This document shows, piece by piece, positions 1-17,757 of a DNA stretch of 64,000 nucleotides. This stretch comes from Armatimonadota bacterium (GTDB taxonomy: Bacteria > Armatimonadota > Fimbriimonadia > Fimbriimonadales > Fimbriimonadaceae). Each line of letters opens with the position of its first letter. Position 1 is the first letter of the stretch. The translations under genes were made by a program, and so were the position numbers. A model generated the notes under the pieces. It made no database searches. It was not told the origin of the DNA and saw nothing but the letters and a program-made list of their open reading frames with translations. The stretch is taken from assembly GCA_018268255.1 (NCBI GenBank), contig JAFDWX010000007.1:27178-91177 (forward strand). Direction: 5' to 3'.

Positions 1-42
1 GCAAGCAGGGGGTTAGGGGTTCGAATCCCCTTGCCTCCACCA
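1..42 (+). tRNA. tRNA-Ala (anticodon NGC, probably TGC), 3' part only
   Basis: The window opens inside the anticodon loop. The remaining parts read in order: anticodon bases G35-C36, loop bases AA, anticodon-stem 3' strand GCAGG, variable loop GGGTT, T-arm AGGGG-TTCGAAT-CCCCT, acceptor strand TGCCTCC, discriminator A and an encoded CCA. The U at acceptor position 70 would give the G3-U70 pair that identifies alanine tRNAs. The first anticodon base lies outside the window, so TGC and GGC cannot be separated. Confidence 0.85.
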
Positions 43-51
43 CTTACTTTT

Positions 52-483
52 TCATTCACCCACACCGAGGAGAGGTTCCGATCCTTCGTGACGGTTACCA
101 GGGCAAGAATCGGCGAATTCGATTGATATCCGGGCACCTTCCTCTTCCTCGCTTTCGACGAGTTTTCGGCGGAGTACGAGTTCCGACAGATGAAAGTCGT
201 CGCATTGAAAGAAGCATGCGACTGGATGTTTGGAAGCACGCGATTGCCGAAAAAGCGTATCGAGAACAGGTTTCGCCAAGTTATCTAGGTCACCACGCCG
301 GTGCTTCGTCATCCTGAAGTCCACCTCCACCCGACTGGGAATTGTCTCGGGTGGCCATTGCGAAGGGACCAGTTCACGAGCTTTCTCCGCGATGAGTTTG
401 CGCCAAATCCCTTCGTGAGGTTGGTTGGCCCAAGGACTGGGTCTACCCTTAACCTCAATTACCACCGTTTTGGTGATGTGCAT
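52..483 (-). CDS. RusA-family Holliday junction resolvase
   Basis: This encodes a small protein (143 aa from the ATG) resembling RusA endodeoxyribonucleases, metal-dependent dimers that cut four-way DNA junctions. The family signature is visible as GDLDN, with the acidic pair Asp65/Asp67 and Asn68 in ATG numbering, followed by a second acidic pair in QCDDFH near residues 95-96. The N-terminus has the usual beta strand leading into GRPSPWANQ. A GTG eight codons upstream (505-507) is an alternative start; neither start has a clear ribosome binding site. The C-terminal 20 residues are rich in Glu, Gly and Ser and look disordered. RusA is often phage-derived, but no phage genes are nearby. It is convergent with the upstream tRNA and separated from the PEP-CTERM gene by a strong hairpin. 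Confidence 0.75.
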   Translation of the reverse strand: MHITKTVVIEVKGRPSPWANQPHEGIWRKLIAEKARELVPSQWPPETIPSRVEVDFRMTKHRRGDLDNLAKPVLDTLFRQSRASKHPVACFFQCDDFHLSELVLRRKLVESEEEEGARISIEFADSCPGNRHEGSEPLLGVGE

Positions 484-524
484 AAGCTTAGGATACGCAG
501 ATTCCACCCGTCAACCGCAATAGA

Positions 525-559
525 GCCCGCCGTGCCAAGCCTTGTTTGGCACGGCGGGC
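525..559 (-). terminator. 14-bp perfect hairpin after the PEP-CTERM gene
   Basis: GCCCGCCGTGCCAA at 525-538 pairs perfectly with TTGGCACGGCGGGC at 546-559 around a 7-base loop. It lies just past the stop codon of the PEP-CTERM gene on the minus strand and before rusA. There is no clean T-run after it on either strand, so it may be a factor-assisted terminator or a 3' stabilising structure. Confidence 0.5.
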
Positions 560-573
560 ACAGAGTTGCGTGA

Positions 574-1431
574 TTAGGCCCTGCGGCGACGGCGAGCGAG
601 ACCGGCCACGCCGACTGCGAGCGCGATCATCGTTGCCGGCTCCGGAACAACTCGAGCGGCGGCGATACCGCGAATCTGGATTGCGGTCCCATCCGATCCC
701 GCCCCGTAAGGACCAATCGAGGTGATGGCCGTTCCTGCTGCATTTACCCAAGCCAAACTGTTAAGCCTAGTCAAAAACAGCTTCGATTCATCGCCCTTCC
801 AAGCATGGTCGTAATCGACATCATTGCCAGCAAAGCTGTAGATATTGGCACCGTAGTTACTGGATGAATAAACTCCAAATGGATTGATCAGTTTGTTGCG
901 TTGCCACCCAGCGTTGAAGTTATCATCTACGAGGTTGAGGTCGCCGCTACCGTCTAGGAAGAGATTGTCTCCGTCGGTCATGCCAGTTGCGGCATTATTG
1001 GCGATGAGCCCATAGCTGTTATTCAATAGCGCGAGCTTTCCGCTAAAGAAGCCGCCGTTGCCGTAGCTGACGACAAGTCCGCCGTGGCCCCCCGAGTACT
1101 CAACGCCTTCGAAGAAGTTGGTAGGAATTCCGGTCGAACCCACTACAGTTCCGGTCATCGCAACAGGGTCGATTTCGACTAGCTGCGATTGAAAAGCCGT
1201 CATCGTTTGCACGGTGACAAACTTATTCGTTGTGGGATTGTAGGTCAGGCCGGATGTATTAATGCTTCCATTGCTGCTGAAGCTAAAAAGTGCTGTCGCA
1301 GCACCTGTTGTCGTGTTGATTTGGTAGAAGGTGTCGAGTGTACTGCCGTGGGACACGCCATAAAGATCATCGGCGACTGCGCTGCCACACAAAGCGAAAA
1401 GAAGTGATGAGAGGAATAGTGTTTTTTTCAT
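574..1431 (-). CDS. PEP-CTERM sorted exported protein
   Basis: This is an exported protein of 285 aa. The chosen ATG at 1431 starts a classic Sec signal (MKKTLFLSSLLFALCGSAVA, cleavage before DD); an in-frame upstream start at 1494 would only bury it. The body is rich in Gly, Thr and Asn and reads like a beta-propeller or sheet repeat (GLTYNPTTNKF, DGDNLFLDGSGDL). The C-terminus carries the tripartite PEP-CTERM sorting signal: VPEPAT, a hydrophobic helix (MIALAVGVAGLA) and an arginine cluster (RRRRRA). Such proteins are recognised by an exosortase and are thought to reach the envelope or extracellular matrix. No exosortase gene is in the window. The specific function is unknown. Confidence 0.88.
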   Translation of the reverse strand: MKKTLFLSSLLFALCGSAVADDLYGVSHGSTLDTFYQINTTTGAATALFSFSSNGSINTSGLTYNPTTNKFVTVQTMTAFQSQLVEIDPVAMTGTVVGSTGIPTNFFEGVEYSGGHGGLVVSYGNGGFFSGKLALLNNSYGLIANNAATGMTDGDNLFLDGSGDLNLVDDNFNAGWQRNKLINPFGVYSSSNYGANIYSFAGNDVDYDHAWKGDESKLFLTRLNSLAWVNAAGTAITSIGPYGAGSDGTAIQIRGIAAARVVPEPATMIALAVGVAGLARRRRRA

Positions 1432-1464
1432 TGGATTTCTTGGGCGCCCCGCCCTTTGGTCCAT

Positions 1465-1486
1465 ATTGTTAGAACACCTTAACAAT
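1465..1486. promoter_or_regulatory. Inverted repeat upstream of the PEP-CTERM gene
   Basis: ATTGTTA (1465-1471) and TAACAAT (1480-1486) form a perfect 7-bp dyad with an 8-bp spacer, about 35 bp upstream of the chosen start codon. The geometry suits a dimeric repressor or activator site. A GGGCGCCC palindrome (1442-1449) lies between it and the start. No regulator gene is adjacent, so the role is inferred from position only. Confidence 0.3.
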
Positions 1487-1572
1487 GTGACCAAGTCTCA
1501 AAAATTGCGGTCTGTACGCTGAGGCCAGGTTCAACGCAATTATTTATGCTTGGGACTTTTGGCGAAAACCAG

Positions 1573-1610
1573 CAAAAAATAGAGGTACTGACAACTCTTG
1601 TCAGCACCTC
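1573..1610 (-). terminator. Rho-independent terminator of the VOC gene
   Basis: Read on the minus strand, GAGGTGCTGACA and TGTCAGTACCTC form a 12-bp stem with one mismatch and a 5-base loop, followed immediately by TATTTTTT. It lies just downstream of the stop codon of the VOC-family gene (1638). This is a textbook intrinsic terminator. Confidence 0.8.
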
Positions 1611-1637
1611 GCCTGAACCTCAATTTGGTTTGGAAAA

Positions 1638-2114
1638 TTACGAGGAACTTGCAGATGCGTAAGCAGCTTCGAGTCCGGCAACATCCAGTTTCACCATCTC
1701 CATCATGGCGGCCATCACGGCATTGCGTTGGGCCGGATTTCCCGACTTCATCAGTTCATCCATTCTCGCGGGATTGATCTGCCACGAAAAGCCCCACTTG
1801 TCCCGGAGCCAGCCGCATTGGACAGGCTCCCCACCATCCGCAATCAGGGCATCCCAAATCCGATCAAGTTCTTCTTGAGTGCTGCACGTGACCGTAAACG
1901 AATAGCTGTCCGTTGCACCTGGTGCTCCGTTTGCATCCATCGCGGTGTACTCCGTGCCGCCCAGCCTGAACTGGATAATCGACACCACCTCGCCTCCGGG
2001 CACGTCGATCCTCTCGATTTCATTGATCGCGCTGTCGTCGATGAGCGATGTGTAAAGGCGGGTCGCCTCTTCGGCACCGCTGGCGAACCAAAGGAATGGC
2101 TTGGCACTGGTCAT
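1638..2114 (-). CDS. VOC-superfamily (PhnB/3-demethylubiquinone-type) protein
   Basis: A 158-aa single-domain protein of the vicinal oxygen chelate fold. It matches the PhnB-like group often labelled '3-demethylubiquinone-9 3-methyltransferase' by old annotation: it opens with KPFLWFASGAEEATRLYTSL, has an FRLGGTEYTAMDANG strand, and ends in the WLRDKWGFSWQINPARMDEL segment with a helical tail. The family usually binds a metal or small molecules; the substrate cannot be read from sequence. It is a single-gene unit with its own terminator and is convergent with nothing. The start is the only ATG preceding the first beta strand. Confidence 0.85.
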   Translation of the reverse strand: MTSAKPFLWFASGAEEATRLYTSLIDDSAINEIERIDVPGGEVVSIIQFRLGGTEYTAMDANGAPGATDSYSFTVTCSTQEELDRIWDALIADGGEPVQCGWLRDKWGFSWQINPARMDELMKSGNPAQRNAVMAAMMEMVKLDVAGLEAAYASASSS

Positions 2115-2212
2115 GCTCAGAATTTACCTGCCACACATACTGGGAACGTGCCCCCGGTTGAATCATTGCCGTTATTGAGGCAGGAAGACGGTTCCAGTGC
2201 CAAGATAACGCA

Positions 2213-3139
2213 GTGCTCAAGTGGTTCAAGCCCAAGACCGCCCGCCTCAGCGTTGCCTACGACCATATCCTCGGGACCTCGTGCGAGTTCCACATCACAG
2301 GCGAAAGCCACCAGGTCTGCCAACAAGCAGTCGATCTCGCACTCAGCAAGATCGACGAGCTTGAGGCCATATTCTCGGTCTTCCGGCCCGATAGCGAATT
2401 TCAACGTTGGCAGCAAACGCTTGAAAAGCCAACTGAAGTGTCGATGGATCTCGCTCATGTCCTGCGAAAGGCGGAGCACTACCGACAGATTTCAAATAAC
2501 GCTTTCTTGCCTATTGCTGATTCCGTTCGCGACCTGTGGAAGGCGAACCCGGAGCAACCCAGACTGAGCGGAGACGAGCCGTTGTGGACTGTGGACCCCA
2601 ACCACCCCATCGCCACAAGGCACACCGACCTTCCTGCCAGCCTCAACGCTATCGCAAAGGGACACATCGTGGATCGTGCTGCCGAGGTCGCCCACGGCGT
2701 TTCGGGCATTCTGCAGGTGATGGTCAACATCGGCGGTGAAATCCGCCATATCGGAGAGGGGCATGTGGACGTTAGCGTGGCCGACCCACAGCGGGATGCC
2801 GAAAACGCTGATCCGCTCTGCCGGATTCGACTTTCAAACGAGGGAATGGCCACAAGTGGTGGGTATCGACGAGGGTTCAGTCACCAGGGACAAGAATGGT
2901 CCCACATCTTCGATCCCATCTCCGGAAAGCCGGCTCCGAGGGAAACGAGTGCCTCTGTCATCGCCCGCACAACGCTCGACGCAGACGCCATCGCGACAAT
3001 TTTGAGCGTTCTCCCGCAAGAACAGGGAGAATTTTGGGCAAGCACTCTGAACAACGTGGGATACTTCGTCGTTATTGCCCCGGGTTGTTCAACGTCGAAT
3101 GACTACTGGGACCAGAAGATCCTTCCGCCAACGCCATGA
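2213..3139 (+). CDS. apbE: ApbE-family FAD:protein FMN transferase, no export signal
   Basis: 308 aa. ApbE moves FMN from FAD onto a threonine or serine of a target protein. Family hallmarks are present: the FRPDSEFQRW region (57-66), NAIAKGHIVDR (145-155), TSGGYRRG (214-221), HIFDPISGKP (231-240) and the metal-site segment TTLDADAIAT (253-262). Most ApbE proteins are periplasmic lipoproteins or Sec-exported. Here the N-terminus is plain and soluble from a GTG start, and the in-frame sequence upstream back to the previous stop holds no signal peptide. The next gene overlaps it by 4 bp and encodes a Tat-exported DUF2271 protein. This suggests cytoplasmic flavinylation before folded export (inference). 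Confidence 0.9.
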   Translation: MLKWFKPKTARLSVAYDHILGTSCEFHITGESHQVCQQAVDLALSKIDELEAIFSVFRPDSEFQRWQQTLEKPTEVSMDLAHVLRKAEHYRQISNNAFLPIADSVRDLWKANPEQPRLSGDEPLWTVDPNHPIATRHTDLPASLNAIAKGHIVDRAAEVAHGVSGILQVMVNIGGEIRHIGEGHVDVSVADPQRDAENADPLCRIRLSNEGMATSGGYRRGFSHQGQEWSHIFDPISGKPAPRETSASVIARTTLDADAIATILSVLPQEQGEFWASTLNNVGYFVVIAPGCSTSNDYWDQKILPPTP

Positions 3140-3732
3140 ATCAGGAAACCGCTCCCCCGCACTCGCGCCGTAGCTTTCTCAAGCAACTCGGCAGTCTCGC
3201 GCTCATGCTCGCCGCTCCGTCGCTTCTCGCCAAAGCTCCAGCCAAAAAAGCTGCTAAGTGGGATATCCACTATGAAGCGCTGATCTCGCTGAGCATCGCG
3301 GAGCAGGAAGGGTTTCGCACGCACCGACCCTATGTGGCAGTGTGGGTCGAGGACGCTAATGGAAAGACGATCCGGACGCTGAGCCTGTGGGTCCAAACAG
3401 AGCGGCGAGGACCCAAGTGGATTCCAGACCTCCGGCGCTGGTTCCGAGGCGAAGAAGACCGGAGAACCGCGGACGGTGGAGACATGGTTACGACAATCTC
3501 CAGCGCCACACGTCAAGCGGGCAAATACTCTCTTGTTTGGAACGGCAAGAACGACAAAGGCGCCCTCGTCGACCAAGGCGATTACAACATCTGCATCGAA
3601 GCGGTCCGCGAGCATGGCACCTATCAGCTGATCCGCGAAAAAGTGAGCTTCGGGAAGAAGGTTTTCAAGCAGAACTTCCAGGGCAATCAGGAGATCGACG
3701 GAGCCTCAGTTGAATTCCGAAAGAAAGCCTGA
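3136..3732 (+). CDS. Tat-exported DUF2271 protein, probable flavinylation target
   Basis: 198 aa. The N-terminus is a Tat signal (SRRSFLKQLG at 10-19, then a hydrophobic run ending near ALAK-type residues 30-36). The rest matches DUF2271: AVWVEDANGKTIRTLSLWV (68-86) and a C-terminal FlgD/Ig-like half (GKYSLVWNGKNDKG, DYNICIEAVREHGTYQL). Between them, residues 119-125 read TTISSAT, where family members from memory often show a D-x-x-S-G-A-T sequence, the ApbE acceptor motif. Thr125 would be the FMN-carrying residue. The start overlaps apbE by 4 bp (ATGA), and the 3' end overlaps the PepSY gene by 23 bp. The role as an extracytoplasmic flavin carrier is inferred. Confidence 0.8.
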   Translation: MNQETAPPHSRRSFLKQLGSLALMLAAPSLLAKAPAKKAAKWDIHYEALISLSIAEQEGFRTHRPYVAVWVEDANGKTIRTLSLWVQTERRGPKWIPDLRRWFRGEEDRRTADGGDMVTTISSATRQAGKYSLVWNGKNDKGALVDQGDYNICIEAVREHGTYQLIREKVSFGKKVFKQNFQGNQEIDGASVEFRKKA

Positions 3733-4333
3733 AGGTCACCGGCCCAGGCCGTTTAAAATACGACTCCACCATTGGCTCCGGTGGCTGCACCTATACACGT
3801 CCCTGTTCTCGCTGATGACGGTGCTGTTTTTCGCGCTCACGGGCATCACGCTTAATCATCCGGAATGGACATTTGGCGGAAAGCCGATACGGACGGTGGT
3901 GCGCGGCAAACTCGATCCGGGATTTGCTCAAGGTGAAAAGGTTGATTGGCTGAAAGTCGTGGAGCAACTTCGTCGCGACCAGCCCGTGAAAGGCTCTGCA
4001 GTCGATATGCGAGTGGATGGAGACGAGGGAAGCCTCTCGTTCAAATCGCCAGGGTCGGTTTCGGAGTGTTTCTTCAAGCTGGAAAATGGCGATTACGAGA
4101 TGTCTATCAGCGCACAGGGATGGCTTGGCGTGATGAACGACTTGCATCGAGGGCGTGATTCAGGCTCCAATTGGGGCTGGCTGATCGACGTAAGCGGGGT
4201 GTTTTTGAGCCTGCTCTCGGTAACCGGGCTCGGCATTCTTTTCTATCTCAAAAAGTCGCGCGTGGCTGGCCTCATTGTTGGGTCCGTAGGTTTGGCAATC
4301 ATCCTTTTGTTGGGTTACCTGGCCTCGCGATAA
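3710..4333 (+). CDS. PepSY-associated membrane protein
   Basis: 207 aa with a TTG start preceded by GGAG. There are three membrane segments: about 27-47 (YTSLFSLMTVLFFALTGITL), about 155-178 (a WLIDVSGVFLSLLSVTGLGI-type helix) and about 186-205. A roughly 100-residue extracytoplasmic domain lies between the first two. Histidines at the first-helix edge (LHHWLRWLHLY) and in the NDLHRGRDSG motif just before the second helix match PepSY_TM proteins, which are thought to pass electrons across the membrane in ApbE-linked systems. It ends the apbE-DUF2271-PepSY operon and probably reduces or oxidises the flavinylated DUF2271 partner. Confidence 0.82.
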   Translation: MNSERKPEGHRPRPFKIRLHHWLRWLHLYTSLFSLMTVLFFALTGITLNHPEWTFGGKPIRTVVRGKLDPGFAQGEKVDWLKVVEQLRRDQPVKGSAVDMRVDGDEGSLSFKSPGSVSECFFKLENGDYEMSISAQGWLGVMNDLHRGRDSGSNWGWLIDVSGVFLSLLSVTGLGILFYLKKSRVAGLIVGSVGLAIILLLGYLASR

Positions 4334-4498
4334 CCGATGTCCTAAGTGGTAAATTGGTTCGCAAGGTGTGGCCCACGCCTCCTCCCTCCAAGTTGGGAAA
4401 GTACTCGATTCGTGCCGGGTTTCGATAGTTTTGTGGACTTTGTAGACGAACCACGCATGCGGAGGGATTGCGGATGAGGTTCGTCGCATGAGGTTCAA

Positions 4499-5212
4499 AT
4501 GATGAAACTATCTGCTCCAATTTTCCAACTTAAACGCCAAGCTAGACTGCTCGCCCGAGAGAAATCCATCGCCCTCCATGAGGCCCTTGACACGATTGCG
4601 CAACGCGAAGGGCTCGCCACCTGGAGCCACCTCGCCTCGGCCTATTCCAAAGATTCACCGGCAATCAGGCTCTACCGCACCATCAGGCCCGGAAGCCTTG
4701 TTCTGATTGCAGCCCGTCCAGGTCAGGGAAAGACGCTCATGGGGCTGGAACTGGCTCTGATCGCCATGAAAGGCGGTCACAAAAGCGTTTTCTTTACGCT
4801 GGAATACACCCAGCAAGAGTGTCTCGAACGGTTCAAATCCATTGGACAGGAGGTCGAACCCTTTGGTTCGCTCTTCACTTTTGATGGATCGGACGATCTG
4901 TGTGCGGACTACATCATACGGGCTCATCCAAATCCGACAGCGGGCACCATGATGGTGGTCGACTACCTTCAGTTGCTGGACCAACGCCGCGAAAATGCCG
5001 ACCTTTCCACGCAGGTTAACCTTTTGCACAGCTACGCGCGAGATTTCGGTGTCGTTCTGGTTTTCCTCTCACAGATTGATCGGAGCTATGACCCCACCAC
5101 CAAGCCGTGCCCAGAATTCTCTGACTTGCGCCTGCCCAACCCGTTGGATCTCGAGCTATTCCAATGCGGTTGTTTCTTGCACGGGTCCGAGATGCAAATC
5201 GTGTCCCGCTGA
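4499..5212 (+). CDS. Stand-alone DnaB-C-like RecA-fold ATPase
   Basis: 237 aa. The core is a RecA-fold ATPase resembling the C-terminal domain of the replicative helicase DnaB: Walker A ARPGQGKT (72-79), an FFTLEYT strand after it, Walker B around MMVVDYLQLL (near 155-164), and an FLSQIDR motif like the DnaB SQLSR motif. The N-terminal 50 residues (LKRQARLLAREKSIALHEAL, then EGLATWSHL) are not the DnaB primase-binding domain but a short helical segment. The end has an unusual DLRLPNPLDLELF motif. It is too short for a normal helicase and stands alone, with no primase or phage genes nearby. I recall a conserved family of this length called 'DNA helicase', but its function is not established. 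Confidence 0.7.
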   Translation: MMKLSAPIFQLKRQARLLAREKSIALHEALDTIAQREGLATWSHLASAYSKDSPAIRLYRTIRPGSLVLIAARPGQGKTLMGLELALIAMKGGHKSVFFTLEYTQQECLERFKSIGQEVEPFGSLFTFDGSDDLCADYIIRAHPNPTAGTMMVVDYLQLLDQRRENADLSTQVNLLHSYARDFGVVLVFLSQIDRSYDPTTKPCPEFSDLRLPNPLDLELFQCGCFLHGSEMQIVSR

Positions 5213-5285
5213 GGGATAACCACAACCTCTCCCCAGCGGGCACCGATTAGGGATAGCGCAAGGGGCGGAGTGATAGACTGGTTCC

Positions 5286-6089
5286 ATGTCGCTCCTCCCC
5301 TTGCTGATTGCTGCTGCTCTCCATCTGCAAGCACCGCCTGCACCGACAACCTACGACTTCGTGCCGAACATCCCGTACCGAGCGAGCAATGGAGACAAGC
5401 TCATCGAAAAGCAGTGTCGGCTGGATTTGTACGTCCCGAAGAGCACTAAAGATTTCCCAACGATCGTGTGGTTCCATGGTGGTGGCTTAACCGGTGGCCA
5501 AAAAGAGATTCCCACGCGCTTGAAGAACCAAAACGTGGCAGTTGTCGGTGCTGAGTATCGGCTGAGCCCTACTGTCAAGGCGCCAACTTACATCGAGGAT
5601 GCGGCTGCCGCAGTCGCGTGGACTGTCCAAAATATCGCCAAATACGGAGGTTCGACCAAGAAGATCTTTATCAGTGGACACTCCGCCGGGGGATATCTGG
5701 CCAGTATGGTCGTATTGGACAAGAGGTGGTTGAAGCCGTATGGTATCGACCCGGATTCCTTTGCCGGACTGGTGCCATTCAGCGGTCAGTCCATCACGCA
5801 TTTCACCATTCGCAAAGAGCGTGGGATTTCCGACAAACAGCCGGTGATCGACGATCTAGCACCAGTTTTTCACGTCCGCAAAGATGCTCCTCCGATTTTG
5901 CTGCTATCTGGGGACCGAAACAAGGAACTCCTGGGCCGCTATGAAGAATCAGCGTACTTTTGGAGGTTGCTGAAGGAAGTGGGCCATCCCAATGTTCAAC
6001 TCTTGGAACTCCAAGGGTTTGATCATGGCGGAATGATCGATCCCGGAATGCCGCTTCTCCTTGAGTTCGTTCGCGGTGCGAGTTCCTAG
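5286..6089 (+). CDS. Alpha/beta hydrolase (carboxylesterase/lipase-like)
   Basis: 267 aa with a short Sec signal (SLLPLLIAAALHLQA). It has the hormone-sensitive-lipase/BD-FAE type layout: oxyanion motif HGGG (64-67), nucleophile elbow GHSAGG with Ser133, and a catalytic His in GFDHGGM near the C-terminus. The acid is probably the Asp in LLLSGDRN. It likely hydrolyses small carboxylic esters in the periplasm; the substrate is not predictable. It is a monocistronic gene on the plus strand, 60 bp upstream of the aldo/keto reductase. Confidence 0.87.
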   Translation: MSLLPLLIAAALHLQAPPAPTTYDFVPNIPYRASNGDKLIEKQCRLDLYVPKSTKDFPTIVWFHGGGLTGGQKEIPTRLKNQNVAVVGAEYRLSPTVKAPTYIEDAAAAVAWTVQNIAKYGGSTKKIFISGHSAGGYLASMVVLDKRWLKPYGIDPDSFAGLVPFSGQSITHFTIRKERGISDKQPVIDDLAPVFHVRKDAPPILLLSGDRNKELLGRYEESAYFWRLLKEVGHPNVQLLELQGFDHGGMIDPGMPLLLEFVRGASS

Positions 6090-8550: not shown

Positions 8551-9567
8551 TCAAGTATTGCCGAGTGCCTTAATGGCTTGTTCAAACGAACCTTGGAATG
8601 GGACAGTTGAATCGAGTTGTTGAACCCTTTGCAACATAGAAAGTTGGCCATGATTTTCCATATCTAACACCAGGCAGGAACCCTGATCAGATGACGCAAC
8701 TTCGAGATAACGGGGCGAAGGAGTATTGTAGCACGTGTCCTCGAACCTATGGACTCGAGCACCATCTCCGCAACTCGTCAAGTGCATGTTAGCAATCCAT
8801 GAGAAATACCCTCCACATTGCGAATATGCATCTGTTTCCTCGAGAAGCGCTGCAAGTTCAGCGTTAAGGGCGTGCCCTGTTTCAATGGGTGGGAACCAGT
8901 CAAACACTGTCACTGAGCAATCATCTAGAGTTGCATCCACATCGGCATCCAGAAAGTCCAAAAATGCCTCGCCCGAGTCCTGCAAAGAAAGTAATATTCG
9001 ATGACCTACTTCAGTTCGGCACAAGCCGAATCGAGCAACAACTGGTTTGGATCTTTTCAGCAGGTTCGCGCACCGACCGAGAATCGTTGTAGTTTGAAAC
9101 TCGATTCTCCTCATTCCACAAGTTCGGATTCGGCGTGCTCTTTTGAGTCCTGCGATTTTTGCGACTTCCGGGCATAAATAGTTTGGTGTAGAAGTCTGCT
9201 TGGCAAGCCACCCAAGCAAGTGCCATATCGTTGGAGCTAAGTACTCAATCGACATCTTCTGTGGATATTCGATCTCGTACGCGCAAGCTTCTCCTGAATC
9301 CTTTATGGCATAACCGGCGAAAATGTCGGAGATGCCTATAAAGTGCCATCCTGGATCCAGCGGTATCAGATCAATATCATCCCCGATGTTGGGTTCAAAA
9401 CAATCAAACTCGGTTTGGAGTGATCCATATGTCCGATAAAACTCGTGCATCGCCACTACTCTCCCGAGGGCCTCTGGATTGTCCGGCGGCAGTTTGGTAA
9501 CGTGCCACCGCTTCGCGGCGATCTCTCTATCAATGAGTTTGATACAGTCCTGAACTTCAACGTCCAT
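8551..9567 (-). CDS. Two-domain immunity-like protein (A+B fusion)
   Basis: 338 aa, function not established. The N-terminal 130 residues resemble the neighbouring 158-aa protein: PGWHFIGISDIFAGYAI and the block LAPTIWHLLGWLAKQ versus SAPSIWHYVAHLIIFTKQ. The C-terminal 200 residues resemble the 222-aa protein at 10665: FLDFLDAD versus FFDFLDGD, GGYFSWI versus KGYFEYL, and LVLDMENHGQ versus LMLDMENQGS. The gene looks like a fusion of two immunity-type domains. It is last in the minus-strand array below the RHS toxin, 6 bp after the previous gene. A role in toxin neutralisation is inferred from context. No signal peptide is seen, so it should be cytoplasmic. Confidence 0.6.
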   Translation of the reverse strand: MDVEVQDCIKLIDREIAAKRWHVTKLPPDNPEALGRVVAMHEFYRTYGSLQTEFDCFEPNIGDDIDLIPLDPGWHFIGISDIFAGYAIKDSGEACAYEIEYPQKMSIEYLAPTIWHLLGWLAKQTSTPNYLCPEVAKIAGLKRARRIRTCGMRRIEFQTTTILGRCANLLKRSKPVVARFGLCRTEVGHRILLSLQDSGEAFLDFLDADVDATLDDCSVTVFDWFPPIETGHALNAELAALLEETDAYSQCGGYFSWIANMHLTSCGDGARVHRFEDTCYNTPSPRYLEVASSDQGSCLVLDMENHGQLSMLQRVQQLDSTVPFQGSFEQAIKALGNT

Positions 9568-9573
9568 GATGTG

Positions 9574-10050
9574 CTAACTTGATTCGGCGACTGCCTGTTT
9601 GGTGAATATGATGAGATGGGCGACGTAGTGCCAGATGGACGGAGCCGAAGTCTCTAGGTGAGCCGAGCACCTTGCCGGATTAAATAGATCACCTGTCTCT
9701 CCTGTCTCCTGGTTCATTGCAATCCCAAGTGCATACTCACTATCACCGATATAGATCCAGGGTGGCGGCATCTCTGCCACGGGATCCTTCACGTATTTCC
9801 AATGGATCTGATCGTCTGGTCCTGCCAGAAACTGAAAAGTCTTGAAGAAATCCGCATTTGGTGCCGTGAGGTTCCCTACGTCCGGGCACTCCTCCGTCTG
9901 CGGTTCAGCAGTCCAGATCCCAGTTGACACCTCGTCCAGCACCATAGCCTTGGCCTCTTTCCACGTTAGGTGATTGGCCAAGCCGGCCTCTGGACCATTG
10001 ACGATTCTCGGATCGGGCCGTGTTCCAAAGATGGATTTGAGTATGTTCAT
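9574..10050 (-). CDS. SUKH-like putative immunity protein (domain A)
   Basis: 158 aa, cytoplasmic, no recognised motif of catalysis. The pattern resembles SMI1/KNR4 (SUKH) immunity folds: a PPPWIYIGDSEYALGIAM strand pair, an acidic NQETGETGDLF turn and a C-terminal helix (APSIWHYVAHLIIF). The same block occurs in the N-terminal part of the next gene's 338-aa product. The start is ATG at 10050 without an obvious ribosome binding site. It sits in the five-gene array after the RHS toxin gene. SUKH assignment is by feel of the motif spacing, not by search. Confidence 0.55.
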   Translation of the reverse strand: MNILKSIFGTRPDPRIVNGPEAGLANHLTWKEAKAMVLDEVSTGIWTAEPQTEECPDVGNLTAPNADFFKTFQFLAGPDDQIHWKYVKDPVAEMPPPWIYIGDSEYALGIAMNQETGETGDLFNPARCSAHLETSAPSIWHYVAHLIIFTKQAVAESS

Positions 10051-10133
10051 AACCGAATTTCTAGATGGCCGCTGAATGCTATTTGCTACTCACTTTATCG
10101 GCGATCCATACTGGTTACGAGAGAGAAACCGGC

Positions 10134-10598
10134 CTATTCTGTATCTAATTCCAGCAGTGTCAGAAAATCTCCGAATGAATCACAAACATCCCAAAACTCT
10201 GGATCATCCGGGTCACTTTCGTGGTCATGAATTTTGATCGTCGAACTGCCGTTCTCGTCGTAGACGAAAAGGAAATTGTCTCCGATATCACTCCTCGCAA
10301 AGATGATTGAGTTGGCAACATCGTGCGAATCATTCGCTTCGACAAGGCCCATATCATCCAGGGTTGGACCAATCCCGTAGATCCCTGTGACATCGCTGAA
10401 CTCGTCGCCATAGCCTGGATCAACGGGACACATCACCATTTGTTTAAAATAGCAACCGTCTGAAATTTGGGTAACGAATTCAACGAAGTCGTCCGGTAAC
10501 TTTTTACGCAGTTGGCTCTCAGCTTCTCTCACGCGGTCAATATCTACAGGCGGTGCCTTTCGCGTAACTTCAAGAATGGTCTCTGGCAAAGTCTTCAT
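10134..10598 (-). CDS. SMI1/KNR4 (SUKH) family immunity protein
   Basis: 154 aa. The sequence follows the SUKH plan: an N-terminal helix (RVREAESQLRKKLPDDFVEFV), ISDGCYF, GDNFLFVYDENGSSTIKIHDH, and a C-terminal DSFGDFLTLL helix. SUKH proteins neutralise diverse nuclease toxins of polymorphic systems. The start at 10598 is favoured over an in-frame upstream codon at 10637 because a perfect AGGAGGT (reverse of 10610-10616) lies upstream at about 11-base spacing. It belongs to the array under the RHS toxin, flanked by two unrelated immunity-like genes. Confidence 0.75.
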   Translation of the reverse strand: MKTLPETILEVTRKAPPVDIDRVREAESQLRKKLPDDFVEFVTQISDGCYFKQMVMCPVDPGYGDEFSDVTGIYGIGPTLDDMGLVEANDSHDVANSIIFARSDIGDNFLFVYDENGSSTIKIHDHESDPDDPEFWDVCDSFGDFLTLLELDTE

Positions 10599-10664
10599 GT
10601 GTTTCGTGTACCTCCTACGGTCGAAATGATTTACCACTGTTCGACCAGCTATGCTCGCTAGATA

Positions 10665-11333
10665 TCAATCGAGTTCCTCATAGAGCATATTGAGTCTCTC
10701 CATAGCATCCACAAAGTCCCCATCGACCCGTTCAAGTGTGTCAAAATCATCATGGTCTTGCAGTATTACGTAACTACCTTGGTTTTCCATGTCGAGCATG
10801 AGGTAGCTCGGCCTGGGGCTATCTGCCACAATAATATAACGTTCCCCCAGCAGATCGTGGTAAATGGTTCTTCCATAGGGCCACACCTTAACTGAAGCGT
10901 CCGAAGGCAACGGTATTGGATTACTCAGATATTCAAAATATCCTTTGGAATTGGCATGCACTGACCCTGAGCACAGAAGTCGGCACGCATCGTGTGGCAA
11001 CAGTTTTGGTTCTGACGCAGGCGGTAGCATATCGAGCAAAAAGGTTTGTGGCGGATCGACCAAACCATGGCTATCTCCATCAAGAAAATCAAAAAAGCTC
11101 TGTTCGGTACTGCTATTGTACAGAATTGCCCTCGACCCGTTGTCAAACGTTATCAGCGCATATGTTATTGTACTCCTTTTCCCTCGGAAGCGGGTCAATA
11201 GCGAGCGCACCATCGAACCTGACAAGTGCTCAGTTATTCTATACTTCCCTGTCTGACTAAATCCTCCGCAATATTCACCTAACTGTCTCAGCACGGCTCT
11301 GCACAATTCAATCTCCGCGTCAGTCAATCTCAC
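10665..11333 (-). CDS. Putative immunity protein (domain B)
   Basis: 222 aa with a GTG start preceded by AGGGGA. No family was recognised. It shares its plan with the C-terminal half of the 338-aa protein at 8551: a DGSRAILY-type strand set, FFDFLDGD, a KGYFEYL strand and LMLDMENQGS near the end. There is no signal peptide or membrane segment. Position in the array below the RHS toxin, and the presence of a second copy fused to another immunity-like domain, suggest an immunity role. It could be a different small-ligand-binding family. Confidence 0.5.
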   Translation of the reverse strand: MRLTDAEIELCRAVLRQLGEYCGGFSQTGKYRITEHLSGSMVRSLLTRFRGKRSTITYALITFDNGSRAILYNSSTEQSFFDFLDGDSHGLVDPPQTFLLDMLPPASEPKLLPHDACRLLCSGSVHANSKGYFEYLSNPIPLPSDASVKVWPYGRTIYHDLLGERYIIVADSPRPSYLMLDMENQGSYVILQDHDDFDTLERVDGDFVDAMERLNMLYEELD

Positions 11334-11413: not shown

Positions 11414-12133
11414 TCAAATACGCAAGCCAGACCCTTCCATCTTCTGCTTCATCTTGTTACCAAGGGATTGCATTCGATTTATGATAGCATTAACATCCTC
11501 GTATCCAACGATGCGCAAAGCATATTCGTACACCTCAGTGCTTACAATCTGTTCAGCGGAAAGGTTCTCGGCGAGGTCAATAGCCCAAGCCCAATAGTTC
11601 ATCTCTGGCTGCTGCAATACCGCGACGATCGCTTCGCAAGGCGCAAAAGCGTGTTGTTTTGTTACAAGATGAAAAGCTTCATCAGAATCTAGGAACACAA
11701 ACGCCTTGGAAAAAAACTGGCTCTTAGATGCCGGAGTTTGCTTCGATTCGAGGACTGTTCTGACAAATTCCTCGGCACCAACTATTCGGGAAGGCCTTAC
11801 TAGATTAGCAATGAGCATCCTAAGGTGAACGTTCGGGTTCCGTGAAAAAATGTCCTGAATGATCTGGGAGGGGATTTTGAGTTTGGTCGCAATTAATACA
11901 TTTAGCAGCATTTCGAAATGGAAGACTGGAGGATACTCCTTGGTCAATTCTTCGTGAACAAACTGAATTACGGCCCTATTCTTGTACACCTTAGACTTGT
12001 CATACTGAAAATACTCTTCGTCCACCTTGTCGCCTATTAGCTGCGAAAAATTCCGCAGCATATTGTGGTACTTGACTTCTGATGGTGGGTTGGTGTCTGC
12101 AGTTCTCCCAATCTGATCCCTAAGCATGTGCAT
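11414..12133 (-). CDS. Unknown helical protein, coupled to the RHS toxin; probable cognate immunity
   Basis: 239 aa, not recognised. The sequence is mostly alpha-helical with HEAT-like character (LIANLVRPSRIVGAEEFV, FHLVTKQHAFAPCEAIVAVL). The start codon overlaps the toxin stop codon by one base (TAATG), and an AAGGA ribosome binding site lies inside the toxin 3' end at 7-base spacing. The two proteins are therefore made together, the usual arrangement for a toxin and its own immunity protein. The coding sequence looks more AT-rich than its neighbours, consistent with recent exchange. No homology supports the function. Confidence 0.55.
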   Translation of the reverse strand: MHMLRDQIGRTADTNPPSEVKYHNMLRNFSQLIGDKVDEEYFQYDKSKVYKNRAVIQFVHEELTKEYPPVFHFEMLLNVLIATKLKIPSQIIQDIFSRNPNVHLRMLIANLVRPSRIVGAEEFVRTVLESKQTPASKSQFFSKAFVFLDSDEAFHLVTKQHAFAPCEAIVAVLQQPEMNYWAWAIDLAENLSAEQIVSTEVYEYALRIVGYEDVNAIINRMQSLGNKMKQKMEGSGLRI

Positions 12134-15100
12134 TATCTCATCCTTATTCGACGTATGTCAATGAGAGGGTGGTTCGCCAAAGTCTTTGCCAATGTTGTAC
12201 CGCTGTCAACGATGAGGCAAAGGCGGCGGCCCAAGTTCTCGGCGATTTTTATTTCAGCTCTGATCTGCTTTGTCAGGCTCAAGTATCTTACGTTCTTGAC
12301 TTCGACAATATGTGTCGCGGTCACTGAGTCTGGAATCACCTTAACGATAACGCCGTTGAGCATGGTCGCAAACTTCTCGGTGTTCTTGACAATTCCTGCT
12401 GCTCGCTCACCTTCCATGCCAAGCTGCCAGGCAGTTTTTGCAATCTTGGCTTCGGAGACTGTGCCTTTGATCCATTGGCCAAGCCGCAACAGTGAGGGGG
12501 ATTCAGAAGCACCGGCGGTTGATACCACTGAAACCGTGAACCCAACAATTCTGCCACCAACATACTCACTTGAATTTGTCCGAACTCCGGCACCGTCGTA
12601 AACTTTGTCCCTAATCCACCGACCTGTACCGAAGGACATCTCGTCCCCCGCGCCAGCGCAAAAGTCCGAGAATCTGCGCTCCATTTCAGGGGTCAGCCAT
12701 TTGGGTGACCATGCGTACCAGGCCAAGTCCCCGCCAGCCGATGGGTCCAAGCCCAGCGGGTCGGCGAGACCGATGGGGTCTCCGGCGCAGTAAGCGTATT
12801 GGTTCAAGCCCCCGGCTTGCCCGATGGGGTCGCGGTTCAGAAACCGCCCATAAGCTGGATCATAGTAGCGATAGGTGCACAGGGAGAGCCCTGTTTCAGA
12901 GTCCCGGAGATACCCATGCTGAGCCTTGAAGCCAGCGTACGGATCAGTCGTCGCCACCGAAGAGCTGAACCCGCCATAGGCATCAGCAGAATGGTAGGAG
13001 AGTACTGAACCACCGGAATTCAGCCTGGAAGAAGTCGATCCCATAGGATCGAACATGTAAAAGGTCGAAGAGCCCGCCGTGCGACGGGAAACGAGGCCGG
13101 CCGCACCCCACGTGTTCACGGCACTAACCGCGCCAGTGCTATTCAGTTCCAGGATCGGAACGGCCCCATCGTAGATGTAGTAGGTGCGAGTCGACCCAGC
13201 TTGTTTCCACGCGCGCTTCCCGCCTGAGTCGTAGCCAGCAGTTAGGGAAGTTCCGAAAGATGTGGCGTGGTCATTTTCGGACCAAGCAACGGTCGATCCG
13301 GCATACTGGGTCGGGTTGCCATTGGCGTCGTAGCTGAATCCGGCCGCGGAAATCTGGTTCTTGGTGTTAAAGGTGCGGGTTCCGCCCTTAAATGTAGTCA
13401 GATTATCGGTCGCATCCAAGCCGTAGCTGTGCGTGTAGCCACCCATTCGGGTGCCGCTTTCCAGGGTAAGGCGTCCTCGAGTGTCATATTGGTATGCCAC
13501 TGAGCCGCCGTAGCTCGGCATCCCAGGAACGCTGACGCTGAATCCACTGAGATTCCCTTGGGCGTCGCGACTGATTCCTGTGTACGAGGAAATGACGCTT
13601 CCTCCCGAACCATAGTTGGTGAGTGATGTCAGCTCCGAGGCCGCATTCTGATTTAGGATCGAGTAGGCACCATTCGGTAGGTTGCTCTGCTCTAGCAGGT
13701 CGTTTTGGCGATAAACCCACGAACTGGCCTCTGAGTAAGGATTGGTGAGGCCGGTCAGCCGACCTCGCAGATCATAGGAGTAGGTGAAGCTTCCTGCCGG
13801 GGACGTGAGAGATGCTCTTGAACCATCGGCGTGGTATCCGTAACCCAAAGTCACTGCGGGCAGCCCCGTATAAGCTCGGGTTGCCGTCAGGAGCTGGTCA
13901 AGGTCTCCACGCGTGTAGGTTTCAGTTCCTTGCTCGTCGGTTAAGCCCTGTAGGCGACCAAGCGTGTCGTAGCTATACGTGACGTTAAGACCAGGAGCAG
14001 TGGGATGAACAACCTGTGTCAGGAGTCCATCCGGATCGCCGTAGACAAACTGCGTAACCTGTCCTTTCGGATCCGTCGTTTGCAGCAGTCTTCCGGCCGA
14101 GGAGTACGAGTCGTATGTCGTGGTTTCGCCCTGGAGCGATTCCGAAGCAAGGTAGCCCGCCGCCCCGTACGCATAGGACGTGGTTCGCCCCAGGCCGTCG
14201 GTAGTCGTGAGAAGCCTATTGTCTGCATCGTAGGTGGAACTGCTTGGCTCAGCATCGCCCGATACTCCAACTACTCGTCCCACCAAGTCGTAGGTTGGGA
14301 TGACCTGTTGAACCAATGCGCCCGATTCAGAAAAGAGCTTGGAAGCGCTTACCGGCCCTCCGGGATACAGATACTCCGTCGTAGACGTTTGCCTCCCCGC
14401 ACCGTTCTGCCCGGTTGCGGGGCGTTGGGTCTGCGTTACCTGGCCAGCGATGTTGTACGAGGTGTCGTACTGGTTGCCCAGACCGTCAAAGCTCGTCACC
14501 ACCCTTCCAAAAGAGTCGTATCGGTAGCGAGAAACCAAGCCGAGGTTGTCTTCCACTCGAATCGGCTGACCAAGGGCCGCAGCCTGGCTATAGCTCCCAT
14601 CCGTGGTGTAGTTAAAGGTCACAGTGCGGGTGGAGCCGGCGTTATTGCCCGGCCCAATTACGGTCAGGATATTGCCCAGCGAGTCATAGGTCAGAGTTCG
14701 AGTGACGGTTCCGGACCCGGTGGGGGAAGGTCCGGTAACCGTTTGGAGGAGACCTGAAGGCTCGTAGTAGGTGAATGTGGTTGCAGGATGCCCCGTTTCC
14801 TGCACAGAGACCAGCCGACCCATGGCATAGGTGCCGTAGTCGTAGGTGTAGGTGGTGACGATGCCTCGAGGCGTCGTAGTGGAAAGCAGATTGCCGTAGA
14901 CATCCCAGTTGTAAAGGGTCGTTTTGCCGTCACCATCTGTGACTTCGCTCGGCAGGTACGGCGCGTCGGCATCGCCGTACACTCTGGATTCGACCACCGT
15001 GGAGAGCGAACCGTCCGTACTCGAAGTCGGCATCATGTCCGAGTTCGAACTCACCTGGTACTTGTTGACGACATTGCCATTCGGGTCTTTTACAGTGACC

Positions 15101-17757
15101 CGGCGGGTCCCAGCAACCGGAACGCTATATTCACGCTTGTTGCCAAGAGCATCGGTTTGGCTCGAAATCTGACCGTTCGTAAGGTTGAAAGCAAAGGTTC
15201 TGGTGCTAAACCCAGTTCCGGTCGGCGAGATCTCTGAAATCGAGACGATCGGCTTCTCGTGGGATGCGCCAGTGGCGTAATACGAATAGGTTTGCCGAGT
15301 TGGGGGATTGGAGGTCCCTGTCGATACGATCTGGCTGCACCCAGTCAAAAATCCGGAGGTCCAATAGTAGGCAACAGTTCGGTTGTACCGATCCGCAACC
15401 GAAAGAATAACCGGTGAACTCCCTGTCTGCCGCGAGATGGTCAGCAGCGCCGTCCCGTTCTGGTCGTCGATTCGGCTTAATAATGCTGGGATCGCGGTAT
15501 ACGAAGGATTGGAATAGTAACTGAAGCTGATATAGTGACCCAGCCGATCGGTGAGTCGAACCAGTGGGTGAACCGCCCATGTGCCAGAACCAGTCACGTC
15601 GGGTCTCTGGACTTTGAAGCGCATCACCGTTTGACTCTTGTCCTCCACCTCCCACTGCCCGTAGGCGCAAGTCGAGTCGTACAGCCACCGGACAATGTAA
15701 GGTTGGCCGGCGGGCACCTGACAATTCACTACCGGATTGCCAGACGTAGGAACGCTGTTTGCGACCACCCTTGCCTGTGCCAGGTTAGGAAACCGAACGA
15801 GCTTCGGACCAGTGGTCAGGGCGATTGCTTCCGGCGTGACCGTGAAGCTCGCGGAGCGGTAGTTCACCACGCCATTGGACGACCATTTTCGGCGGATGAC
15901 ATACCCGGAACCCAGTGCCGCGCTGAGCGGAGTCCGAACTGTGAAGTCGTAGTTGCCCGTATCGAAGCTCGCCAGTCGCCATTCGCCAGGACTGTTGATG
16001 TCGGCAATCACCGTACCGTTGAGAGTCAAGTCCCAATAGGTGCCAAGGCTTGAGGGGCCAGGGGGAATGGTCCCATCGCTGCTGAGCTTGAGTTCAGAAA
16101 CACGTCGACACTCACGCTCCACGATGATTTGGAAATCACCGACGATGGTGGTGGATCCAACCGTGCTTTTCCAGGTTGCCAGGTAGTCCGTACCCAAAGC
16201 CGCGCCTATAGGCGGTGTGACCGTACAACTGCTGCTGCTTCGGACCAGTACCCAACCGTTAGTCGCGGAGGAAGTGGCGACCACCGTCGTGCCCTTATTG
16301 ATCTGCCAAGTCAGAGTGCCAGTGAGGGTTCCGGTTCCAGTAGTGGCCACCGTGACGACTCGGTTCGGCTTTGTGATCGGAATCTTGCGCGCACCTGGGT
16401 CGTAGACGTCGATGTTATAGCTCTGGGACCACCGAACTCCGAAGTCGATGTCGTTCCGGGCGTTCGGCTCGTTCCAGTCCTGCGTGACAGTGTTTGGAAA
16501 GCTGTGGTAATTCCGCGCCCACGCCACACTTGGCCCGACAGGATTGTAAACGGAAAGGTCAACGCCAGGGCTGAACGATTCCTCGCCAGTAGCCAGATTA
16601 ACTGGGTCACCATCGGTCGCTGGGTTTTGGCCTGCAAGGCCATGTGGGCTGGAACTACCCGTTCCGGGCCCGCAAACCGAGGTCGTCAAGATAGGAAGGA
16701 GCTGCGCCTGACCGCGCATCGCGGCCGCGATCGCTCCATTGACTGGCGCAGGGGTGAACACAACCTGTGGATGATTCGCAGCTAACACATCGGCGAAATC
16801 TCTTCCTTGGGGAGGTCCAAGGACTGATTCCAGCGTCGAGTAATCCACAGAGCCCGGTTTGGCAATCAGCAGATAGTGATCTGCATCCAGGGCTTCCCAT
16901 TGTTTCCAGGAGATTTTCGTCTTTGCGCCTGTGCCTCCGCATCCCGCGCAAGTGATTTCTAACCCCCGAGAATCCGCCGAGTAGACCGTGACAAACCGCC
17001 GATGTTCCACATGCGCGATCGCAGGTTTGGGTGCAGAGATGAGCGCAGCGGGAGTCAGAGTTACGGGCCATGATCCAAATCCCAGCGAGTTCACGCCCCG
17101 CTCAAGACCGCGGAGGTCGCTTCCGAATTCGGTCCTTCCGGTTACCCGACTCAGGTTCTCAAGCGAAATACTGCAGCCATGTGTGGCAAGAATGGCTTGG
17201 AGGCTCTTGACTCCGCATTCCGGATCACCGACTTCAGGCGATTCAAGGCCCTTGGACCGGTTCTCTTCACAAGCTTTGAGGCGGCTCTCCGCTTGGTCTG
17301 CCCAGCGAGCAATCGCAGATCGTTGAGCCAAATCGACATTGCACAATCTGGCACAGTGCTTCGCTAACCCGTCGAGTAACTGGCTGTATTGCCCGCGTCG
17401 ATACGAGACTTCAACTTGAAGCTGGATGACCTTGGCCCAAAGGGGTCCCTCAATATTATCGGCAGACAAGAGATAGTCTAACTTAGCCGCTACTGGCTTT
17501 AATAAGCGATATTGTTGGAATTCACTTCTCGCCGCTCGATAGATTGCCTCTTGTCTTTCAGAGCGACTTCTGGAACGATCATTCGCAATACAATAGGCAT
17601 CTAGAACCTCTCTCAGAGCCGAATGACTTGGAGCGATGGATTCTGCGGCAACCTGAAACTCTCTCTCAGCGAGGACTCGAGGGACATCCCAAACCGGCAT
17701 CGCCCCAATCACTTTCGTTGAAACAATCGCCAAACATAAGACTATCAAACGCCACAT
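12133..17757 (-). CDS. RHS/YD-repeat polymorphic toxin with REase-type C-terminus
   Basis: 1874 aa. Order of parts: Sec-like signal (1-20); helical region (30-165); a C39-peptidase-like domain (about 178-305) with Cys181 in ECGVKSLQ and AHVEHRRFVTVY, where the catalytic His and Asp are not cleanly placed; a DUF6531-like entry (DGDPVNLATGEESF); many YD repeats such as YDSLGRL-type units (about 800-1600); the RHS core end (RFLNRDPIGQAGGLNQYAY ... DPLGLDP); a pretoxin stretch (AGDEMSFGTGRWIRD); and a variable 200-residue tip. The tip has Asp1810 (IPD), Glu1819 and Lys1821 (VEVKN), a PD-(D/E)XK pattern like Tox-REase-7. It is presumably a DNase delivered into competitors. An immunity-like array follows directly. 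Confidence 0.88.
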   Translation of the reverse strand: MWRLIVLCLAIVSTKVIGAMPVWDVPRVLAEREFQVAAESIAPSHSALREVLDAYCIANDRSRSRSERQEAIYRAARSEFQQYRLLKPVAAKLDYLLSADNIEGPLWAKVIQLQVEVSYRRGQYSQLLDGLAKHCARLCNVDLAQRSAIARWADQAESRLKACEENRSKGLESPEVGDPECGVKSLQAILATHGCSISLENLSRVTGRTEFGSDLRGLERGVNSLGFGSWPVTLTPAALISAPKPAIAHVEHRRFVTVYSADSRGLEITCAGCGGTGAKTKISWKQWEALDADHYLLIAKPGSVDYSTLESVLGPPQGRDFADVLAANHPQVVFTPAPVNGAIAAAMRGQAQLLPILTTSVCGPGTGSSSPHGLAGQNPATDGDPVNLATGEESFSPGVDLSVYNPVGPSVAWARNYHSFPNTVTQDWNEPNARNDIDFGVRWSQSYNIDVYDPGARKIPITKPNRVVTVATTGTGTLTGTLTWQINKGTTVVATSSATNGWVLVRSSSSCTVTPPIGAALGTDYLATWKSTVGSTTIVGDFQIIVERECRRVSELKLSSDGTIPPGPSSLGTYWDLTLNGTVIADINSPGEWRLASFDTGNYDFTVRTPLSAALGSGYVIRRKWSSNGVVNYRSASFTVTPEAIALTTGPKLVRFPNLAQARVVANSVPTSGNPVVNCQVPAGQPYIVRWLYDSTCAYGQWEVEDKSQTVMRFKVQRPDVTGSGTWAVHPLVRLTDRLGHYISFSYYSNPSYTAIPALLSRIDDQNGTALLTISRQTGSSPVILSVADRYNRTVAYYWTSGFLTGCSQIVSTGTSNPPTRQTYSYYATGASHEKPIVSISEISPTGTGFSTRTFAFNLTNGQISSQTDALGNKREYSVPVAGTRRVTVKDPNGNVVNKYQVSSNSDMMPTSSTDGSLSTVVESRVYGDADAPYLPSEVTDGDGKTTLYNWDVYGNLLSTTTPRGIVTTYTYDYGTYAMGRLVSVQETGHPATTFTYYEPSGLLQTVTGPSPTGSGTVTRTLTYDSLGNILTVIGPGNNAGSTRTVTFNYTTDGSYSQAAALGQPIRVEDNLGLVSRYRYDSFGRVVTSFDGLGNQYDTSYNIAGQVTQTQRPATGQNGAGRQTSTTEYLYPGGPVSASKLFSESGALVQQVIPTYDLVGRVVGVSGDAEPSSSTYDADNRLLTTTDGLGRTTSYAYGAAGYLASESLQGETTTYDSYSSAGRLLQTTDPKGQVTQFVYGDPDGLLTQVVHPTAPGLNVTYSYDTLGRLQGLTDEQGTETYTRGDLDQLLTATRAYTGLPAVTLGYGYHADGSRASLTSPAGSFTYSYDLRGRLTGLTNPYSEASSWVYRQNDLLEQSNLPNGAYSILNQNAASELTSLTNYGSGGSVISSYTGISRDAQGNLSGFSVSVPGMPSYGGSVAYQYDTRGRLTLESGTRMGGYTHSYGLDATDNLTTFKGGTRTFNTKNQISAAGFSYDANGNPTQYAGSTVAWSENDHATSFGTSLTAGYDSGGKRAWKQAGSTRTYYIYDGAVPILELNSTGAVSAVNTWGAAGLVSRRTAGSSTFYMFDPMGSTSSRLNSGGSVLSYHSADAYGGFSSSVATTDPYAGFKAQHGYLRDSETGLSLCTYRYYDPAYGRFLNRDPIGQAGGLNQYAYCAGDPIGLADPLGLDPSAGGDLAWYAWSPKWLTPEMERRFSDFCAGAGDEMSFGTGRWIRDKVYDGAGVRTNSSEYVGGRIVGFTVSVVSTAGASESPSLLRLGQWIKGTVSEAKIAKTAWQLGMEGERAAGIVKNTEKFATMLNGVIVKVIPDSVTATHIVEVKNVRYLSLTKQIRAEIKIAENLGRRLCLIVDSGTTLAKTLANHPLIDIRRIRMR

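Follow-up and report, generated by a model that had tools for sequence, protein, structure and literature searches.

Gene row behind the RHS toxin gene

The window, that is, the whole 64-kb stretch of DNA that was analyzed, contains a gene for a large RHS-repeat protein and, behind it, five tightly spaced genes on the minus strand (from position 12133 to 8551) without a toxin ORF in between. In the order of transcription, the row reads RHS gene, 239-aa ORF, B, SUKH gene, A and AB, and the gaps between them are −1, 80, 27, 83 and 6 bases. The designations A, B and AB refer to the three ORFs that were compared in the sequence-only reading, all of which were found at the positions and on the strand given here:

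12133–17757, minus strand: RHS-repeat protein, 1874 aa (Pfam RHS_repeat 4e-32, Tox-REase-7 8e-14, Peptidase_C39 1e-9)
12132–12161, minus strand: sigma-70-like promoter match TTGACA-18-GATAAT (11 of 12 consensus positions)
11414–12133, minus strand: 239-aa ORF, putative cognate immunity gene (by its position; the HEAT-type slot in relatives)
10665–11333, minus strand: B, 222 aa, C-terminal third SUKH-like (similarity to the C-terminal part of AB; SUKH profile)
10134–10637, minus strand: SUKH (SMI1/KNR4) immunity-type protein, 167 aa (Pfam SUKH_6 6e-9 and SMI1_KNR4 1e-7, both above the cut-off)
9574–10050, minus strand: A, 158 aa (similarity to the N-terminal part of AB, 0 of 2000 shuffles)
8551–9567, minus strand: AB, 338-aa composite (A-like from 1 to about 122, junction at about 123–171, B-like at 172–335)

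Downstream of the row lies a convergent gene encoding a beta-eliminating lyase, and the cytochrome c biogenesis genes CcmF/CcmE are located upstream. The RHS protein contains a C39-peptidase-like N-terminal domain, RHS repeats and a Tox-REase-7 nuclease domain at the C-terminus. The C39-peptidase-like domain (residues 178–269, Pfam E 1e-9) includes an ECG motif, followed later by a histidine, and is preceded by a signal-like N-terminus; this domain might process the RHS protein. The same genome contains a second RHS gene with a 1513-aa open frame (L078, G000:C3:405000-423115) and a short lone RHS fragment about 6 kb beyond it; a search of this region with AB gave no match.

The promoter-like site is located at the start of the row, within the end of the RHS gene and exactly at the junction of toxin and immunity genes. 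It is the only sigma-70-like site with 11 of 12 consensus positions in the 64-kb window, and, as a consensus match, it may permit expression of the array without the toxin.

The 239-aa ORF and the RHS gene overlap at position 12133, where the former starts and the latter ends. A scan with the Tox-REase-7 domain revealed ten relatives (L123–L132), nine of them titled outside the phylum of the window, from Actinomycetes, Acidobacteria, Phycisphaerales, Anaerolineaceae and other groups. The toxin in the window shares the motif G..GE...PD...EVKN...Q with relatives. A HEAT-type gene was found directly downstream of the toxin in all ten cases (one truncated by the contig end), and the four HEAT-type genes tested all exceeded the Pfam HEAT_2 cut-off. 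No detectable relative of A or B was found near the ten toxins. The pairing of Tox-REase-7 with HEAT-repeat immunity proteins is listed in PMC3482391, and the window contains the same toxin family, its immunity slot likewise being occupied by an ORF of about that size. In contrast to the listed pair, the 239-aa ORF had no Pfam match and no detectable HEAT repeats. Its HEAT profile score was no better than that of shuffled sequences, and sequence homology to the HEAT immunity genes was not demonstrable. Because HEAT-type immunity genes fill this slot in the ten relatives, the 239-aa ORF, rather than A, B or AB, is likely by its position to encode the cognate antidote of the RHS toxin; A, B, the SUKH protein and AB would therefore be accessory. 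Among the loci collected, an 11.8-kb contig (L080, G184:C12) contains three near-identical cassettes of toxin tip and HEAT immunity gene, resembling displaced RHS tips.

Relation of AB to A and B

Comparison of the N-terminal part of AB (residues 1–130) with A gave a local score of 69, compared with 28 ± 4.6 on average for shuffled sequences, and none of 2000 shuffles scored as high. The two are 26% identical over 103 columns (BLASTP E 2e-4), and the blocks W..IG and APxIWH are common to both. The C-terminal part (residues 131–338) scored 160 against B (shuffles 31 ± 4.9, 0 of 2000 as high), with 28% identity over 164 columns (BLASTP E 4e-17) and the common blocks F.DFLD.D, RY..VA.S and LDMEN.G. 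The remaining pairings of A, B and the parts of AB stayed at chance level in the shuffle test, as did A, B and the AB parts when each was compared with the 239-aa ORF. The two likenesses proposed from the sequence thus hold far above the level of shuffled sequences, with one amendment: similarity to B becomes detectable only at residue 172 of AB, corresponding to residue 50 of B. As these alignments show, AB consists of an A-type module joined head to tail with a B-type one.

Between the modules, AB residues from about 124 to 171 (40–50 residues) showed no match beyond chance to either neighbour in their own frame. In 18 tests of frames and segments, the best result was obtained for the +2 frame against the tail of A (27–31 of 2000 shuffles as high); once multiple testing was counted, this signal was unconvincing, and a hidden frameshift at the junction was not established. 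AB is a single open frame of 340 codons, coding-like on either side of the junction. By codon statistics, its frame ranks first or nearly so along the whole gene, with a weak stretch at about 9095–9155. A and B are complete genes, each with its own start. No repeat at the DNA level was found between the paired genes (A and AB, B and AB), which rules out DNA-level duplication as a recent origin and implies that any duplication is old.

SUKH likeness and distribution of the modules

A, B and AB had no match in Pfam, NCBIfam, PHROGs and PADLOC. A more distant relationship was found with a SUKH profile built from 33 sequences, almost all of them from genomes of the same phylum. Residues 163–212 of B align with positions 68–118 of this profile (hhalign P 1.8e-4, 0 of 100 shuffles), and the C-terminal third of B thus matches the C-terminal half of SUKH at the profile level. 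The N-terminal half of the SUKH profile was unmatched in B, and B gave no match to the Pfam SUKH models at E up to 10. Against SUKH, a joint profile of B and the C-terminal part of AB (ABc) scored lower than B, yet none of the 95 non-SUKH control ORFs and none of 300 column shuffles reached its score. Seven controls scored higher; each of them is a SUKH protein, and several are also contained in the SUKH profile. ABc by itself did not match the SUKH profile, and its SUKH likeness follows from its homology to B. The B module of AB therefore probably has a divergent SUKH-like fold, with support for the C-terminal third. Protein A aligns with the same C-terminal part of SUKH marginally (P 0.027, 8 of 300 shuffles), and six of the 95 non-SUKH controls scored as high. 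AlphaFold2 modeling, with two or three sequences in each alignment, led to poor models (pLDDT of 42 for AB and 46 for B), and empty fold searches consequently carry no meaning. The sequence-only reading could assign neither domain to a family; this still applies to A, which matches no library, and needs to be amended for B, whose C-terminal third is SUKH-like by profile.

Homologues of A or B were sought in approximately 880 genomes of three phyla. Searches with A and with the B alignment gave no credible match beyond the window locus in 291 genomes of the same phylum, nor did AB in 85 genomes of its own family. An alignment of three rows gave none in 294 Planctomycetota and 297 Acidobacteriota genomes. 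Searches with tblastn revealed nothing credible in plasmids (A, B, AB) or phages (AB), and neither the viral contigs scanned for patterns of A and B nor the genome contigs scanned for that of B contained any. Two matches were dismissed: L008 proved to be a methyltransferase-like protein, and a plasmid match lay on the wrong strand. The sensitivity of the searches falls below about 30% identity, and the absence of homologues is weak evidence, given the limited sensitivity of the contig pattern scans and of the three-row profile. Taken as it stands, the lack of relatives elsewhere indicates that the A and B families are rare or fast-evolving.

A different genome from this bacterial family offers a parallel, namely a row of SUKH genes at L081 (positions 1–5569; G061 contig 15). 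Two of its ORFs (162 and 163 aa) consist of SUKH alone, and three (253 aa, 254 aa and one clipped by the contig end) carry SUKH with a tail of about 100 aa. A separate 83-aa ORF consists of the tail only, and its match to the tail exceeds shuffles by 37 standard deviations. Amid these ORFs lie two further proteins of 159 aa, near-identical to each other and without a match to a Pfam family. Since L081 includes both single and fused forms, this pattern is not unique to the window, and a second locus of this kind suggests its recurrence in Fimbriimonadaceae.

Comparison with polyimmunity loci and proteins

Polyimmunity loci and polyimmunity proteins were described in PMC3482391 (Biol Direct 2012, 7:18; section 39). 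The row in the window resembles them in having co-oriented, closely spaced immunity-type genes without an intervening toxin gene, in the presence of SUKH, which is common there, and in joining two immunity-type domains in one polypeptide: each domain of AB is also encoded singly next door (0 of 2000 shuffles for each). From this context, and for B also from the SUKH likeness, we infer that the A and B parts are immunity domains. The differences are as follows. The described loci are usually toxin-free operons, which is a tendency and not part of the definition, whereas the row in the window is headed by the RHS/Tox-REase-7 gene directly upstream. None of the libraries searched contains a family that matches A or B of the window, and the fused protein shares its row with four other genes, including both of its single-domain relatives. 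Armatimonadota, in addition, are absent from the phyla given there for extended loci.

A second comparison is offered by I2, an orphan immunity protein with two SUKH domains from the rAID clusters of Bacteroidales and the closest analogue that has been tested experimentally; its C-terminal domain suffices for protection from its toxin (PMC12247911). Both I2 and AB are two-domain immunity-type proteins in arrays of short co-oriented genes, and strong sequence divergence is tolerated in both. However, both domains of I2 are SUKH and its target is a WHH nuclease, while domain A in the window aligned with SUKH only marginally; and rAID clusters have a tyrosine recombinase, which was not found by Pfam among the eight genes flanking the row in the window. 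Joined antidote proteins are thus already known, and AB is a further case with two unnamed domains.

All these characteristics allow us to assume, with a probability of about two in three, that the RHS toxin gene in the window is joined by a small, heterogeneous polyimmunity locus, with AB as a polyimmunity protein. This reading is based on the domain pairs that exceed shuffles, the co-oriented row behind the RHS/Tox-REase-7 gene with a SUKH gene within it, the HEAT pairing in the ten relatives, the SUKH match of B, the parallel at L081 and the fact that this kind of locus has already been described. Counting against it are the lack of a named family, the poor models, the missing SUKH match of ABc, the marginal result for A, the 239-aa ORF not being demonstrably a HEAT protein and the departure of the locus from the tendencies described in PMC3482391. 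According to the polyimmunity reading, the RHS protein, which carries a Tox-REase-7 nuclease tip, would have its cognate antidote encoded by the overlapping 239-aa ORF, and B, the SUKH protein, A and AB would be accessory immunity-type proteins of the same co-oriented row. In the cytoplasm, one or both modules of AB would bind the nuclease-type tip of an incoming toxin and block it.

The genes A, B and AB could instead form part of the immunity to this single RHS toxin, either being jointly needed or representing successive versions that track changes of the tip. The co-orientation of all genes directly behind the toxin gene, their small gaps and the promoter-like site ahead of the row agree with this, as do the two cognate immunity proteins against one toxin that are reported from Bacteroides (PMC11699363). 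Nevertheless, the ten Tox-REase-7 relatives all have a single adjacent HEAT-type gene with no detectable A or B nearby, and the 239-aa ORF occupies that slot in the window; immunity to one toxin therefore appears doubtful. We regard it as quite improbable that AB is the source from which A and B arose by fission, or that the 338-aa frame results from two genes joined by decay or by an assembly error. The junction unlike either neighbour and its weak codon signal would fit such an origin, and the state before the event is preserved in no other genome, but the frame is open, with a coding character before and after the junction, A and B each form a complete gene with its own start, and fused and single forms stand side by side at L081. 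Very improbable is a role unrelated to immunity, for example with A, B and AB serving the RHS protein as chaperones or adaptors, or being chance cargo behind its gene: the three proteins belong to no named immunity family, but a SUKH gene lies in the row, B has a SUKH-like C-terminus and the flanking genes belong to ordinary metabolism.

The polyimmunity reading retains from the sequence-only reading the composite of domains that occur singly next door in an immunity-like setting; the claims that the duplication was local, that the event ran in the direction of fusion and that the toxin range was widened did not gain the same support. Local duplication and fusion are plausible; the confinement of the relatives found to the window locus is compatible with a local duplication, but identities of 26–28% tell no history. 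A wider toxin range for AB is likewise plausible, but since the C-terminal domain of I2 suffices for protection, the presence of a second domain does not have to bring a further target. A further-reaching version, in which A and B are two new immunity families, the array builds and tests composites in place and AB covers both the resident and a foreign toxin, is unlikely.

The occurrence of a composite and both of its parts in one array makes the locus a natural test set for the origin of two-domain antidotes. Such arrays bear on what the second domain contributes, a further target or stability only. If the polyimmunity reading is correct, the locus would place a polyimmunity protein in Armatimonadota.
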